Position numbers and translations under genes: made by a program. Shown here one piece after another: positions 2,022 to 42,346 of a stretch of DNA of 42,664 nt. A model generated the notes under the pieces. That model made no database searches. It was not told where the DNA came from and saw nothing but the letters and a program-made list of their open reading frames with translations. The DNA comes from a virus. How positions within the stretch are numbered: the first letter of the stretch is position 1; every line of letters starts with the position of its first letter. The stretch lies in the IMG/VR virus record IMGVR_UViG_3300046535_001655, positions 1 to 42,664 of that record. One strand, given 5' to 3'.

Positions 2022-3949
2022 TGGCGCGCGACCGTCGTCGAGAACCGCCCCGCCGTCCCGAGCTGCGCGCCGTGGCGCCGCACGTCGCCGGTCGCGTACC
2101 GCCCCACAACCTCGACGCAGAGGCCGCCGTGCTCGGCGCCGTCATGCTCTCGGTCACCGCGCTCGAAGCGGCTCGCGGCATCCTCGCGCCCGAGCATTTC
2201 TATTCCCAGGACAACGGCCGGATCTTCTCGGCTGCGCTCGCCGTCGCCGATGAGGGCCGCCCCGTCGACCTCGTCACCGTCGCCGGCAAGCTTCGCGACC
2301 TCGGCCTCGTCGAGCGGGTCGGCGGCCTTGCCTACGTCGCGCAGTTCGTCGACGCGACCCCCGCCGTCGGCAACGTCGCCACGCACGCCGAGCTCGTTCT
2401 TTCGAAGTGGCGCTCAAGGAGCCTGATCGCGCTCGCCCACGCCTCGATCGCCGAGGCGTACGAGGCCGACCCCGTCGCGCTCGCGACCGCGCACGCCGCC
2501 GCTGTCGAGCGCCTCGCCACGGGGCGCGCCGCCGTCCCCGCCCTCGCCGATCAGGTGCGCGGCATGCTCGCGGCGCCACTCCCGCGCCTCTCCACGGGCG
2601 TCGCGGCGCTCGACCTGGCCACCCGCGGCGGCATCCCGACCGGGCGCGTTGTCGTGCTCGCTGGGGCGCCTGGCGCCGGCAAAACGACCTTCGCCGTGCA
2701 GTTCGCGCACGAGACCGCCTCGCGCGGCATCCCGGTCGCCATCCTGGCCGCCGACGAGCCGGGCGAGGGCATCCGGATCCGCCTCGGCCAGCTGTCCGGG
2801 CTCAACCGCGACGACCTCGAGGCGCGCGACCCGCTTGCTATCGACCATCTCGCCTCATGCTGCGAAGGCGAGCTCGCATCCCTCGCCCTCGTCGACCAGG
2901 AGGAGCACGGGCAGTTGCTCGAGGCCGTCGCCGCCGATCTCGCGCGACGTTGCCGCGTCCGCGTCGAGCTCCCCGATGGGACGCACGAGGATCGCCCTGG
3001 CCCCGGCTTGCTCGTCTGCGACTCGATCCAAAAGCTTCGCGTCGCAGGTTCCGACGAGGTCGACACGCCGCGCGCCAAAGTCGACCTCGTCGCCGATGCC
3101 ATCGTCCGCATCGCCAAGCGGCATCACATCCTCGTCGTCGCCACGTCCGAGGTTTCGCGCGCCTTCTACCGCGGCGGGGACGAGCGCGAGCCGAACGCCC
3201 TCGCCGCCGGCAAGGACAGCGGCGCCGTCGAGTACGGGGCCGATCTGCTCCTCGTCCTGCGCTCGATCCCGGAAGGGCAAGGCGACATCGACGTCGACGT
3301 TCCGAAGAACCGCCTCGGCCATGAAAAGCCCACGTTCCGGATGCGCATCGACCACGCGCGAGCTCGGATGACCCCGCTCCAAACCGCCCACCCCACACCC
3401 AAGGGCGACCGTCAAGCCGCTGTTGCCGCCCGAGAAGAGAGCCAGATCGAGCGTGTCAAGCACAACGTCCTCGAGGCGCTCGTGAAATCGCGCGTCCCCG
3501 TGCACACCCGGCAGGACCTCGCCCGCATGGTCGCCGGCAAGCGCACCCTGATCGAGACCGCTATTACCCGGCTCCTGGCCGAGGGCGGCATCGTCCGACT
3601 CCCTGACGCGTCGCGAAAACAAGGCGTCGTATTGTGTGTCTCTGGGACCACACTTCCCATCGCTTCCCACCCCACTTCCCACCCCACTTCCCAGGGGGAG
3701 GGCGCAGGAGCGGGACCGCGCTTCCCCTCGCGCGCGCACGCACACCCCGAAGGGGTGCGCGCGGCGGGAAGCGGGGTGCTGCTCGGTGATTTTGCAGGCT
3801 CCACCGCGCTTCCCAGCCTGAATCAAGAGGGAAGCGCGGTCGACACCTCCCTCGACACGGCCAAGAACGGGGCCGAGAATGGGACCCCGCTTCCCACCCC
3901 GCTTCCCACTGCGCTTCCCACCCCACTTCCCGATGGGGATGCGTCATGA
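2021..3949 (+). CDS. DnaB-type replicative DNA helicase
   Basis: This is the hexameric helicase that would unwind DNA ahead of the phage replication fork. The N-terminal DnaB domain covers about residues 25-135 (HNLDAEAAVLGAVMLS; the 'EAAVLGA' core is typical). A RecA-like ATPase follows from about 188, with Walker A GAPGAGKT (residues 215-222) and Walker B GLLVCDS (329-335). A helical segment at about 470-545 looks like a winged-helix domain. The last 100 residues are low-complexity and are encoded by the CTTCCC repeat cluster. ATG 2021 is preferred to GTG 2018 because of the TGATG overlap. At 642 aa it is longer than typical DnaB (about 450-470 aa), because of the C-terminal additions. No separate primase gene is recognisable in the window. 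Confidence 0.88.
   Translation: MARDRRREPPRRPELRAVAPHVAGRVPPHNLDAEAAVLGAVMLSVTALEAARGILAPEHFYSQDNGRIFSAALAVADEGRPVDLVTVAGKLRDLGLVERVGGLAYVAQFVDATPAVGNVATHAELVLSKWRSRSLIALAHASIAEAYEADPVALATAHAAAVERLATGRAAVPALADQVRGMLAAPLPRLSTGVAALDLATRGGIPTGRVVVLAGAPGAGKTTFAVQFAHETASRGIPVAILAADEPGEGIRIRLGQLSGLNRDDLEARDPLAIDHLASCCEGELASLALVDQEEHGQLLEAVAADLARRCRVRVELPDGTHEDRPGPGLLVCDSIQKLRVAGSDEVDTPRAKVDLVADAIVRIAKRHHILVVATSEVSRAFYRGGDEREPNALAAGKDSGAVEYGADLLLVLRSIPEGQGDIDVDVPKNRLGHEKPTFRMRIDHARARMTPLQTAHPTPKGDRQAAVAAREESQIERVKHNVLEALVKSRVPVHTRQDLARMVAGKRTLIETAITRLLAEGGIVRLPDASRKQGVVLCVSGTTLPIASHPTSHPTSQGEGAGAGPRFPSRAHAHPEGVRAAGSGVLLGDFAGSTALPSLNQEGSAVDTSLDTAKNGAENGTPLPTPLPTALPTPLPDGDAS
3653..3931 (+). repeat. 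CTTCCC(A) repeat cluster: candidate iteron origin or packaging site
   Basis: Twelve copies of CTTCCC occur in 279 bp. Direct copies start at 3653, 3663, 3675, 3687, 3721, 3809, 3890, 3902, 3914 and 3926; inverted copies (GGGAAG) are at 3766-3771 and 3829-3834. Two sub-arrays have an exact 12-bp step (3663-3687 and 3890-3926). The repeats are read in all three codon frames of the helicase gene, giving HPTSHPTS in one array and TPLPTPLP in the other. Conservation is therefore at DNA level. Initiator-bound iterons inside a replication gene are known (lambda O). Because terS follows, a terminase-binding site is the main alternative. Confidence 0.7.
3803..3840. repeat. Perfect 12-bp inverted repeat with 14-bp spacer
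   Basis: The arms at 3803-3814 (ACCGCGCTTCCC) and 3829-3840 are exact reverse complements separated by 14 bp. The inverted repeat lies in the middle of the CTTCCC cluster, with one repeat unit in each arm. It could form a cruciform or RNA hairpin, or place two protein-binding sites head to head. It is not followed by a T tract, so it is not a standard terminator. Confidence 0.85.
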
Positions 3950-3968
3950 CGCAGGGGCGACTTTTTTT
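3940..3968 (+). terminator. 14-bp palindrome over the helicase stop codon, followed by a T7 tract
   Basis: TGCGTCATGACGCA at 3940-3953 is a perfect palindrome containing the helicase TGA (3947-3949). Eight bases further on is a run of seven T (3962-3968). The palindrome has almost no loop and the T run is not adjacent, so a terminator is only a weak possibility. The T tract and the following less GC-rich 80 bp could instead be the easily melted part of an origin next to the repeat cluster. Confidence 0.35.
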
Positions 3969-4052
3969 GGCGCGTCAATCGATGCGGTCGGCGAACCGAT
4001 CAGACACACGAGGCAAATTCCTTGCAGTTCAGTGTAGTTGTAACGGTGTGAC

Positions 4053-4577
4053 TTGAGCGGCGACCCCATTTCGGACGAATTGCGAGCGGCGATCGTGGCT
4101 TTGAAGGCTGCGAAACCGGGCATGAACGCGGCGGCGGTGGGGAAGGCGCTGGGCGTCTCGGCGGGCTCGGTGGCGAACGTGCTGCGGGCGGCGCGGAAGG
4201 GGGCCATGGCGGCGCAGGAAGCGGCGGCGGCGATCCCCGAGGCGGAGGCCGCCCCGGCCGCTCCGGTGACGCTACAGGGCATCGTGGAGGGGTTGAGGGC
4301 GGAGGCGCCGAGGCTTGGGGCCCTGGCCGAGGCGGCGCGCAAGGCGGGTGACCTGAAGGGGTACGCGATGTACGTGCGGCAGCGGACGGACTTGCTCGAT
4401 AAGCTGGCGGAGCACGAGAGGCCGACGGGGCCGGACCCGGAGCTCGACCCGCTGAACGTGGAGGCGCGGGCGACGCTCGTGCGGAGGTTGCGGGAGATCG
4501 TGGAGCGGGAGGAAGCGGGCCAGCGGCAGGCGGCGAGCCTCCGCGGGATGGTGGCGAGCGGAGCGGCGCCGCGATGA
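4053..4577 (+). CDS. Terminase small subunit-like DNA-binding protein
   Basis: The product is expected to recognise the packaging site and recruit the large subunit. The N-terminus contains a helix-turn-helix (about residues 22-48, with MNAAAVGKALGVSAGSVANV). A helical, charged central region follows, with an ending typical of small-subunit oligomerisation domains. The start is a TTG at 4053: an in-frame TAA lies 12 bases upstream, and later starts would cut the HTH. No strong ribosome-binding site is visible. Identity rests on the HTH plus its place just before the large subunit. The 174-aa size fits the family. The adjacent repeat cluster may be its binding site. Confidence 0.65.
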   Translation: MSGDPISDELRAAIVALKAAKPGMNAAAVGKALGVSAGSVANVLRAARKGAMAAQEAAAAIPEAEAAPAAPVTLQGIVEGLRAEAPRLGALAEAARKAGDLKGYAMYVRQRTDLLDKLAEHERPTGPDPELDPLNVEARATLVRRLREIVEREEAGQRQAASLRGMVASGAAPR

Positions 4578-4795
4578 GTGGCTCACTTCTCGGAGGGCGG
4601 CTCGTGCTCGGCGAAGAGGTCGTCGACGTGCCAGAGGGAGCCACGGTCGACGAAGTAATCGGCGCGGTTCGTCAGCAATCATCATGGCGCGCCGAGCTTC
4701 GCGGTGGGTTGCTCGTGCTCATCCCGCCCGAGCGCGGGACGGCATCGACGGTGACGATCGGCCGCATCGCGAAGAAGATCGAGCGTCGCCGGTGA
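4574..4795 (+). CDS. Small protein between terminase subunits, 73 aa
   Basis: The ATG at 4574 overlaps the small-subunit stop, and its own TGA (4793-4795) overlaps the GTG of the large-subunit gene. The product has a beta-rich first half (SLLGGRLVLGEEVVDVPEGA) and a basic C-terminus ending KKIERRR. It is not recognised. Because it is locked between the two terminase genes, a role in packaging is plausible but not shown by any motif. Confidence 0.6.
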   Translation: MSGSLLGGRLVLGEEVVDVPEGATVDEVIGAVRQQSSWRAELRGGLLVLIPPERGTASTVTIGRIAKKIERRR

Positions 4796-6336
4796 CCGCC
4801 TCCCTGGCGCTCCGCCTCGGCCAGCTGGAGCCCGACGGCCGGCGCCGCGTCCTCGCCGGCCTCTCCCCGCTCGACGCGCGCCGTCTGCTCTACGCGTGGC
4901 GGTTCTGGGCGCGGCCGGAGCAGGTCGAGCCGCCGGGATCGTGGCGCACGTGGGTGATCGACGCGGGCCGCGGGTTCGGCAAGACGAGGTCGGGCGCCGA
5001 GTGGGTGCGCGAGCGCATCGAGAGCGGCGCGGCGAAGTCGATCGCGATGATCGCGGCGACGTATCAAGACCTTCGCGACACGATGCTCGGCGAGGGCACG
5101 AACGAGCCGGGCATGGGCTTCCTGAACGTGTGGCCCGAGGAGCAGCGGCCTCGGTGGCTCGAGCAGAAACACCGCGTCGAGATCCCCGGGCGCAAAGACG
5201 TGCACGTGATGGTCTGGAGCGCCGATAACCCCGAGTTCCGCGGGCCGAACGTCGACACGGTCTGGGGCGACGAGATCTGCAAGTGGCCGAATCCAGAGGC
5301 GCTCTGGAACAACATTCAGTTTGCACTGCGAAGGCCCGGGACGACGACGAAGACCGCGCTCACGACAACGCCGAGTGAAGAGATCCCGCTGCTCGACGAG
5401 ATCGAGGCGGAGTCAGACACGGTCGTGACGAGGGGCTCGACGTTCGATAACGCGGCGAACCTCGACCCGGCATTCATCGCGAAAATGGTCAAGAAGTACG
5501 GCGGGACGCGGCTCGGGCTACAGGAGCTCTTCGCGATCGTGCAGCGCGGCGCGCGCATGTTCCCGAAGGCGGTGATCGACAACAACCGCGCGAGGCCGCC
5601 GGGGAAGTTCAAGAGCGCGGCGGTCGGCGTCGACCCGGGCGTGTCGCAGAACCGCGGGAGTGACCAGACGGGGATCGTCGCGGGCGGCGAGATCGGCGGA
5701 CACCTGTACGTGACCGACGACCGCACGGCGCGGCACTCGGCGGAGTCGTGGGGCTTCGAGGTCCTCGAGGCGTTCTGGCAGCTCGAGCAGATGACGGAGC
5801 CGGGCGGGATGGTGTCGATCGTCGTCGAGCGGAACAAGGGCGGCGACCTCGTGCGGGCTAATCTCACGATGCTGATCACGGTGATCGAGGTCGACCCGCG
5901 GCACACGGGACTGCGACAGAAGTACGGCGCGACGCTGCAGCGTGCGCGACACGCGATCGTCGAGGTGCACGCCTTCGACGGGAAGAAGACGCGCGCGGAG
6001 CCGGTCGCCGCGGCGCACGATCAGGGGCGGATCCACCTCGCCGGATCGTTCCCCGTGCTCGAGCGGCAGCTCGCCGGGTTCAATCCGATGATCTCGAGCA
6101 TGGCGAACAAGGACGCCTTCGACGGCTTCGTGCATCTCGCGTGGCACCTGCTCCACCTCGAGCGGGACGCATACGACCCGCGGAGCTTCGGCGCCGAGGG
6201 CATCGCGTCGCCGGGCATGCGCCTCGACCCGCTCGCCGAGAGCGATCGGACGGGCCGGCGGCTCGAGCCGGGTGAGGCCGCGAGCGAGTACACCGCGGCG
6301 GACGGCTGGGCCGAGAACGACGGGCGCTTCCTCTAG
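4792..6336 (+). CDS. Terminase large subunit (packaging ATPase and nuclease)
   Basis: This is the motor that cuts and pumps DNA into the prohead through the portal. The ATPase domain shows the Walker A variant GRGFGKTR (residues 59-66) and Walker B VWGDE (157-161), followed by a TTTP coupling segment at about 191-194. The RNase H-like nuclease domain starts near residue 283 (VGVDPGVS) with further acidic residues (VVERNKGGD, and DAFDGFVH near the C-terminus). The GTG at 4792 is chosen because it overlaps the upstream stop; an ATG 108 bases earlier would add an Arg-rich stretch read out of the previous gene. The length of 514 aa is normal. It ends tail-to-tail with the portal gene, the two stops overlapping by 2 bases within one CTAG (6333-6336). 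Confidence 0.92.
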   Translation: MTASLALRLGQLEPDGRRRVLAGLSPLDARRLLYAWRFWARPEQVEPPGSWRTWVIDAGRGFGKTRSGAEWVRERIESGAAKSIAMIAATYQDLRDTMLGEGTNEPGMGFLNVWPEEQRPRWLEQKHRVEIPGRKDVHVMVWSADNPEFRGPNVDTVWGDEICKWPNPEALWNNIQFALRRPGTTTKTALTTTPSEEIPLLDEIEAESDTVVTRGSTFDNAANLDPAFIAKMVKKYGGTRLGLQELFAIVQRGARMFPKAVIDNNRARPPGKFKSAAVGVDPGVSQNRGSDQTGIVAGGEIGGHLYVTDDRTARHSAESWGFEVLEAFWQLEQMTEPGGMVSIVVERNKGGDLVRANLTMLITVIEVDPRHTGLRQKYGATLQRARHAIVEVHAFDGKKTRAEPVAAAHDQGRIHLAGSFPVLERQLAGFNPMISSMANKDAFDGFVHLAWHLLHLERDAYDPRSFGAEGIASPGMRLDPLAESDRTGRRLEPGEAASEYTAADGWAENDGRFL

Positions 6337-21596: not shown

Positions 21597-22480
21597 TGCT
21601 CGTCGCCGACTACATCAAGCTGATTTCGCCGGGGTGGGCGCAGGACGGCCAGCTCGAGCGCTACCTTTTCGCGATCGGCGACAGCGTCGACGAGATCCTC
21701 GAGAAGATCGTTCAGGGCCAGAAAATGCACATGCCCGGCGTCGGCGCGCCGAGCGGCCTCGATCGCATTGGCGATGACCGGCTGATTGCGCGCGGCGGGA
21801 CCGAGTCGGATGAGAGCTTCGCGCTCACGCTGCAGGAGTCGCTCGACCTGTGGGCGCAGGCCGGGATCCCGTGGGCCGTGCTGCGGCAGACGTTGCGGCC
21901 ACTGCTCACGCTGCGGCCGGCCATCAAGCAGATCTCGAATTCGTACGACCCGAGCGTCTATCCCTGGGCGCTCAAGTCGACGACCTGGGACACGTACGAC
22001 GCGGGCGACACGCCGGAGACCACGCAGCCCGATCACCAGCTCGACCAGCCGGGTAATTTCGATTGGGACAGCGTCGTGACGTGCCCGGGCTCCTGGAACT
22101 GGAAACGCTTTTGGATCGTCATTGAATCGGTCGGCGCTGACGCATGGTGCAACCCGCGCAGCGACACCTGGGACGACCCGTCGCGGCTCACCTGGGATAC
22201 CGTGCCCGGTTGCTGGGACCTCGACGCGGATCCAGCGTTGCTCTCGGCCATCTGGGACAAGATCCAGCTGTGGAAGCGCGCGTGCGAGTGCGTGGCGCTG
22301 ATCATCAGCTTCGACGCGTCACACTTCGACAAAGACCAGCCGAGCGGCGGCGGGATCAACCCAGACGGCACGTGTGGCCGCTGGTCGACGTATGGCGCCG
22401 TGGTCGCGCACACGAGGCTCACGCAGATCCAGGGCCGCACCTCAATCACCGGGGCCGTGTTCGGCCACAGGGTCCAATAA
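21596..22480 (+). CDS. Tail protein I-like / baseplate-fibre connector, 294 aa
   Basis: The product follows baseplate J, the usual place of the P2 gpI or Mu gp48-type protein that links baseplate and fibres. It starts with MLVADYIKLISPGWAQDGQL and contains two Trp/Asp-rich segments (STTWDTYDAGD and SDTWDDPSRLTWDTVPGCWD), typical of surface-exposed connector domains in high-GC phages. ATG 21596 overlaps the upstream stop (TGATG). Its TAA overlaps the next ATG. Confidence 0.6.
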   Translation: MLVADYIKLISPGWAQDGQLERYLFAIGDSVDEILEKIVQGQKMHMPGVGAPSGLDRIGDDRLIARGGTESDESFALTLQESLDLWAQAGIPWAVLRQTLRPLLTLRPAIKQISNSYDPSVYPWALKSTTWDTYDAGDTPETTQPDHQLDQPGNFDWDSVVTCPGSWNWKRFWIVIESVGADAWCNPRSDTWDDPSRLTWDTVPGCWDLDADPALLSAIWDKIQLWKRACECVALIISFDASHFDKDQPSGGGINPDGTCGRWSTYGAVVAHTRLTQIQGRTSITGAVFGHRVQ

Positions 22481-41816: not shown

Positions 41817-42346
41817 TGCCCGCGAAGCTCCCCACGGTCTACACGCGCGCCGAGCTCGCGGACCCCGCGCCGCTCCTGCCCAAGCCGCGCCCGACCGACC
41901 CGCGTCAGCTCGCCCTGAAACCGATGAGCACCATGCCAGCGATCGTCCGCCCCCCGAAGCGCGAGCCGAGCCCCCACCTCGAGAAGAGCATCGAGCGGGC
42001 CATCCGGCTCGAGCTCGCGAAGGATCCCGACGTGCTGCTCTGGCGGCACTCGGCTGCGCGTCCGATGACAGACGAGCAGGGCAACTTCTTCCGAGCCGGG
42101 CTGCCACAGGGCGCGCCGGATCTGATTGGCATCCTGCGCATCACGGACGTGGTCGCGTTCGGTGCGATCGGTAGGTTCTTCGCGCTCGAGGTCCGCCAGG
42201 CGAAGCGGAAGAAGCGCGACCACCACGAACGCCAGTTCGAGTTCCACGCTTTGATCCGGCGTTTCAACGGATTCGTCGCCGTCGTGACCAGCGTCGAAGA
42301 GGCGCTCGCCGCGCTCGAGCGGGCCCGGGGAGGGGCGTGCGAATGA
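41816..42346 (+). CDS. VRR-NUC type nuclease, 176 aa
   Basis: After a Pro-rich 50-residue N-terminus comes a PD-(D/E)XK fold of the VRR-NUC type: 'LEKSIERAIRLELAKDPDVL' (motif with E), 'GLPQGAPDLIGILRI' (the PD motif), 'FFALEVRQAKRKKRD' (E-x-R/K), then 'HALIRRFNGFVAVVTSVEEA'. The Lys of the ExK motif is replaced by Arg or provided by a nearby residue. Such nucleases resolve branched DNA. It is coupled to the HTH gene at 42343 (ATGA) and to the previous gene (TGATG). Confidence 0.78.
   Translation: MPAKLPTVYTRAELADPAPLLPKPRPTDPRQLALKPMSTMPAIVRPPKREPSPHLEKSIERAIRLELAKDPDVLLWRHSAARPMTDEQGNFFRAGLPQGAPDLIGILRITDVVAFGAIGRFFALEVRQAKRKKRDHHERQFEFHALIRRFNGFVAVVTSVEEALAALERARGGACE

Follow-up and report, generated by a model that had tools for sequence, protein, structure and literature searches.

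Short repeats within a protein-coding gene raise the question of whether they are kept for the protein that they encode or for the DNA itself and, if for the DNA, what reads them. The question is posed here by CTTCCC hexamers clustered in the last 100 codons of a helicase gene in the virus record IMGVR_UViG_3300046535_001655 (G000). The window is the whole of this record, 42,664 nt. Its ends form a 127-bp direct terminal repeat, so that the record closes into a circle of 42.5 kb. The genome has an overall GC content of 70%. Its products, which include an integrase, a repressor, an excisionase-like HTH protein, a terminase and head proteins, indicate a temperate tailed phage; the HTH protein, at 42343, matches excisionase/MerR-type regulators.

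The hexamer cluster in the tail of a helicase gene

The gene was called DnaB-like in a first-pass annotation made from the sequence, and the assignment holds: the ORF matches phrog_19 at 5e-48, and both of its DnaB Pfam domains (Table 1) score above the gathering scores. A further domain is predicted towards the C-terminus, where AlphaFold2 models residues 452-544 (pLDDT 81) in the order H-H-H-E-E. MarR-type winged helices from the PDB match this stretch in Foldseek (E about 0.003-0.03), and no curated family matches it in sequence profiles. The predicted winged helix immediately precedes the repeats in the helicase ORF.

Twelve CTTCCC units, ten direct and two inverted, fall within 279 bp (3653-3931), exactly as first annotated; the genome as a whole contains 36. 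The extended form of the unit is roughly ACCNCRCTTCCC. Four direct units make up each of two arrays, with the remaining units between them (Table 1). The exact 12-bp step originally ascribed to both arrays is found throughout the second, and the first opens with a step of 10 bp. A perfect inverted repeat is likewise present between the arrays, with a length of 13 bp rather than the 12 bp first given (GACCGCGCTTCCC, 3714-3726 / 3829-3841). In order of position the units lie in frames 0,1,1,1,2,2,0,2,0,0,0,0, so that all three codon frames are used, as had also been noted.

CTTCCC is the most locally clustered of all hexamers in the genome, with 12 occurrences in 285 bp against 0.24 expected. 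When the protein was held fixed and codons were redrawn from the gene body, a mean of 0.96 units and a maximum of 5 resulted (5,000 runs); shuffling synonymous codons within the tail gave a mean of 3.7 and a maximum of 8 (5,000 runs). The cluster is thus far beyond both chance and the demands of the protein.

Other repeats occur elsewhere in the genome. Another hexamer, CTGGGA/GTCCCA, is clustered more weakly (5 in 285 bp) at 21963-22260 within a tail-region ORF, and this cluster resembles tryptophan/aspartate-rich protein repeats. A 27-bp tandem duplication (96% identical, 1834-1887) is found near the end of a small ORF upstream of the helicase, and a 37-bp direct repeat (95%) at 727-763 / 957-993 surrounds the starts of two early ORFs (GAGCGATGACCNCGAAGGAACTGATCGCCGA).

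Table 1. Features of the helicase gene, the CTTCCC cluster and the adjoining DNA (positions in the window).
Feature	Position	Strand	Basis or remark
DnaB-like helicase gene, 643 aa	2018..3949	+	Pfam, phrog matches
DnaB N domain	about 2099-2398	+	Pfam 5e-26
DnaB_C/RecA-fold ATPase	about 2588-3322	+	Pfam 3e-13
Predicted C-terminal winged helix (residues 452-544), candidate iteron reader	3371..3650	+	AlphaFold2, Foldseek
First iteron array, four direct CTTCCC units (3653, 3663, 3675, 3687)	3653..3692	+	steps 10-12-12
Middle part, direct units 3721, 3809; inverted units 3766, 3829	3714..3841	.	
Second iteron array, four direct CTTCCC units (3890, 3902, 3914, 3926)	3890..3931	+	steps 12-12-12
Low-GC stretch, 51% GC, candidate unwinding region	3958..4057	.	
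CCGATCAGACACACGAGGC, non-coding 19-mer between helicase and terS	3996..4014	.	identical in G001
Likely terS, upstream of terL	4053..4577	+	N-terminal HTH_23 match

Conservation in a relative and parallel arrays elsewhere

A related phage, the 45,126-bp contig G001, was reached via its large terminase, which is 65% identical to that of the window. Its helicase is 57% identical to the window helicase over 586 residues, and 51% identical across the winged helix. In the tail of the G001 helicase gene there are 11 CTTCCC units: four direct units are followed by a single direct one, two inverted ones and a final four direct, so that order and orientations nearly match those in the window. The spacing differs (steps of 10-11-11 and 11-7-12 in the first and second arrays, respectively, or 7-12 bp overall vs. 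10-12 bp in the window), as do the frames (0,1,0,2,1,1,2,0,2,0,0) and the encoded peptides (LPIASHPTSHPTSQ in the window vs. LPIASRSLPDHFPDGG in G001). Codon shuffles of the G001 tail reach a maximum of 8 units, below the 11 present. About ten of the window units align onto G001 units, and in the tail alignment the unit bases of the window are 87% identical to G001 whereas non-unit bases are 54% identical; third positions across the helicase gene body are 55% identical. Alignment of homologous helicase genes had been proposed beforehand as a check on whether the units outlast changes in the amino acids, and they do so here. Because the units are kept while spacing, frame and peptide change, the comparison supports selection on the DNA rather than the protein, as the first-pass annotation had it, and the repeats appear to be conserved as DNA, independent of coding.

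The conservation rests on one relative, as only G001 carries the CTTCCC form in a helicase. A search with the helicase as a single protein gave no matches, and one with a two-row helicase alignment returned G001 again, one weak match and nothing else. Genome scanning yielded mostly cellular DnaB genes without the cluster, the best of them in Myxococcota, where a search for close relatives found none. The cluster is also missing from three other phage DnaB genes examined, and searches of phage and plasmid records for DNA similar to the segment turned up only short matches that are probably due to chance.

Comparable arrangements with other repeats were found among 30 AAA_25 (RecA-fold) loci from Myxococcota examined for arrays, three of which (L360, L364, and L365) carry strong arrays at or just past the 3′ end of the gene. 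All three encode a RecA-fold helicase with direct and inverted iterons at its 3′ end, as in the window, and by inspection have a winged-helix-like C-terminus; their iteron sequences differ from CTTCCC. L364 has 11 GGAACCA/TGGTTCC units in two frames inside the 3′ part of its AAA_25 gene (1813-2044). An integrase gene follows the L364 AAA_25 gene. In L360 (DnaB-N + AAA_25) and L365 (Prim-Pol + PriCT + AAA_25), CCGTGCC units lie just past the stop codon, at 2536-2700 and 2520-2660, respectively. Downstream of L360 come a major-head gene and, at a distance of more than 3 kb, a small-terminase gene. The L360 and L365 helicases are 72% identical only across a C-terminal stretch of 352 residues and have unrelated N-termini. 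Judged by sequence, the pair is a natural domain swap: the iteron goes with the C-terminal half of the helicase.

Arrays built on the same core hexamer are known from a different class of gene. GCTTCCC arrays, mostly with an 11-bp step, occur inside phrog_16167/1408 replication-initiator genes (MARIRTIKPEFF...) of at least nine viral contigs (L328, L315, L302, L288, L264, L261, L320, L306, and L310), where the repeats are read as ATGKQRGSNGEATGK. These resemble the window cluster in core hexamer, step of about 11 bp, intragenic position and use of several frames. Unlike the window gene, the initiators have no helicase domain, and their mid-gene array runs antisense, so that the coding strand reads GGGAAG. 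Since these initiators were found by motif search, the hexamer in common is no more than suggestive. Homology between them and the helicase winged helix was tested and none was detected, so the resemblance may reflect convergence or search bias. In most named phages with related initiators the repeats are of other kinds.

A candidate origin and its alternatives

The cluster consists of regular short repeats, kept as DNA and lying within the gene of a replication protein, which is the form that an iteron origin takes. The reading preferred here, with a probability of roughly two in three, is that a temperate phage carries here, at the 3′ end of its DnaB-like helicase gene, an intragenic iteron origin with the winged helix as reader. 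An iteron origin within a replication gene was among the original suggestions, and the G001 comparison lends it support. From the arrangement we infer origin function, the binding protein and the site of DNA opening. In this model the C-terminal winged helix would bind the iterons in the tail of its own gene, several helicase molecules would gather on them about one helical turn apart, the neighboring low-GC stretch would open, and the helicase ring would assemble there.

The DNA beyond the cluster has the properties first ascribed to it, a T7 tract (3962-3968) followed and surrounded by less GC-rich DNA. Only about 0.01% of 100-bp windows in the genome have a GC content as low as that of the 100 bp from about 3958; the stretch is at the same time ordinary intergenic DNA ahead of terS, and the matching ends of G001 have 53-58% GC. 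Detrended circular GC skew, another check suggested at the outset, has its minimum at 3931, exactly at the cluster, and the largest up-turn in the genome lies there (0.20 over 2 kb, the next being 0.07) and persists with the cluster masked. Most of the turn comes from the third codon positions of the helicase (-0.37) and terS (+0.50) genes, and G001 shows the same contrast. It may thus be a gene effect that argues only weakly for an origin, and the skew was dropped as proof of one.

The first-pass annotation had also entertained a terminase-binding site. On this account the cluster would serve in packaging, as a pac site or as the binding segment of cos, and be read by the small terminase encoded just downstream. 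The cluster does lie 120-400 bp upstream of terS (terL follows at 4684-6336), and known packaging sites also contain repeats. The G001 contig ends between the cluster and terS, starting exactly at the 19-mer CCGATCAGACACACGAGGC that both phages share (L129 1-19), with its other end aligning just left of it. This pattern, seen in a single contig, is as expected from a cohesive-end virion genome. A cohesive or packaging end near 3996 is therefore possible, a matter separate from the origin claim, but this end is beside the cluster and not inside it. G001 moreover has an extra ORF (MTRGRRSAYEPK..., several cysteines; L128 4837-5127) that parts the cluster from terS and the contig end, with the cluster staying in the helicase gene; its window counterpart is only a short matching start that overlaps the helicase stop codon. 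In the similar element L376, too, the helicase is followed by iterons, with terS more than 3 kb distant. A packaging role for the cluster is accordingly not favored and seems quite unlikely. Regulator operators or single-strand folding signals, such as a primase entry site, are less probable still. The cluster strand as DNA folds better than shuffles (z -5.0) and the inverted units could form hairpins, although the excess folding comes from the inverted units themselves; 10 of the 12 units recur in direct orientation about one helical turn apart, as for a protein array, and the segment contains no well-supported promoter. Finally, the DNA pattern could be a by-product of a low-complexity protein tail. 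An IMG/VR scan for 12-bp-step CTTCCC arrays did yield mostly one-frame protein repeats (PPHFPP, PGRFPGRF) in viruses and genes unrelated to the helicase. The units of the window, however, occupy three frames and both strands in numbers above all codon shuffles, and their persistence in G001 with changed frames contradicts this explanation, which is left with a negligible probability.

If the cluster is an iteron origin, its reader could still be another protein, whether a host factor or a phage initiator that escaped recognition. Separate initiators with intragenic iterons are used by many phages, those with GCTTCCC arrays included, and several early ORFs of the window have no assigned function. 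Against this, no initiator or loader family was recognized among the phage proteins scanned, there are no DnaA boxes near the cluster, and in L360 and L365 the iteron sequence tracks the C-terminal half of the helicase. A different reader is thus considered unlikely. Given a predicted winged helix beside the repeats and no recognized initiator or loader, we infer that the helicase is the most economical candidate, and that its winged helix probably recognizes the candidate origin. Placement of DnaB-type rings on DNA normally depends on a separate initiator, often together with a loader. A winged helix that reads iterons in the 3′ end of its own gene might make both unneeded. More tentatively, and at somewhat less than even odds, a DnaB-family helicase may act as its own origin-recognition protein, such that one gene gives helicase, initiator and origin, in a design that would recur in phages and mobile elements with iterons matched to the C-terminal half.

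Comparison with known replication systems

A DnaB-like helicase with this organization and its own origin reader would, if the model is true, make up a minimal, portable replicon and offer a simple system in which to study the self-loading of a RecA-fold ring at a defined site. A search rule would follow as well: multi-frame short repeats at the 3′ end of helicase genes with a winged helix, by which candidate origins could be located in many uncharacterized phages and integrated elements. A literature search, with most subscription journals outside its reach, found no paper on a DnaB-like helicase with intragenic iterons.

Several known systems share parts of the arrangement. The origin of phage lambda lies inside the initiator gene O, beside a region of lower GC (PMC7466680). 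In lambda as in the window, a replication-protein gene contains iterons next to a lower-GC region. Lambda O is an initiator rather than a helicase and has its iterons mid-gene, whereas those of the window are at the 3′ end of a DnaB-like helicase gene and in both orientations. In the SaPI Rep protein, the C-terminal domain of the helicase reads the origin, and iterons are found at or directly after the helicase gene (PMC7581432). The likeness of SaPI Rep and related self-loading initiator helicases to the window lies in the C-terminal reader, a candidate in the window, and in iterons at the helicase gene; they belong to other helicase families, while the window has a DnaB-like motor and iterons inside the coding sequence. 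The alpha protein of P4 reads origin repeats with a winged-helix domain on the same polypeptide as the helicase (PMC4234260). A winged helix fused to a helicase, predicted in the case of the window, is thus common to both, a likeness for which no sequence relation is claimed. P4 alpha also carries a primase, and its helicase type differs from that of the window. What would set the present locus apart from the lambda O, SaPI Rep, and P4 alpha precedents is that a DnaB-like helicase appears to host both the candidate reader and the origin.
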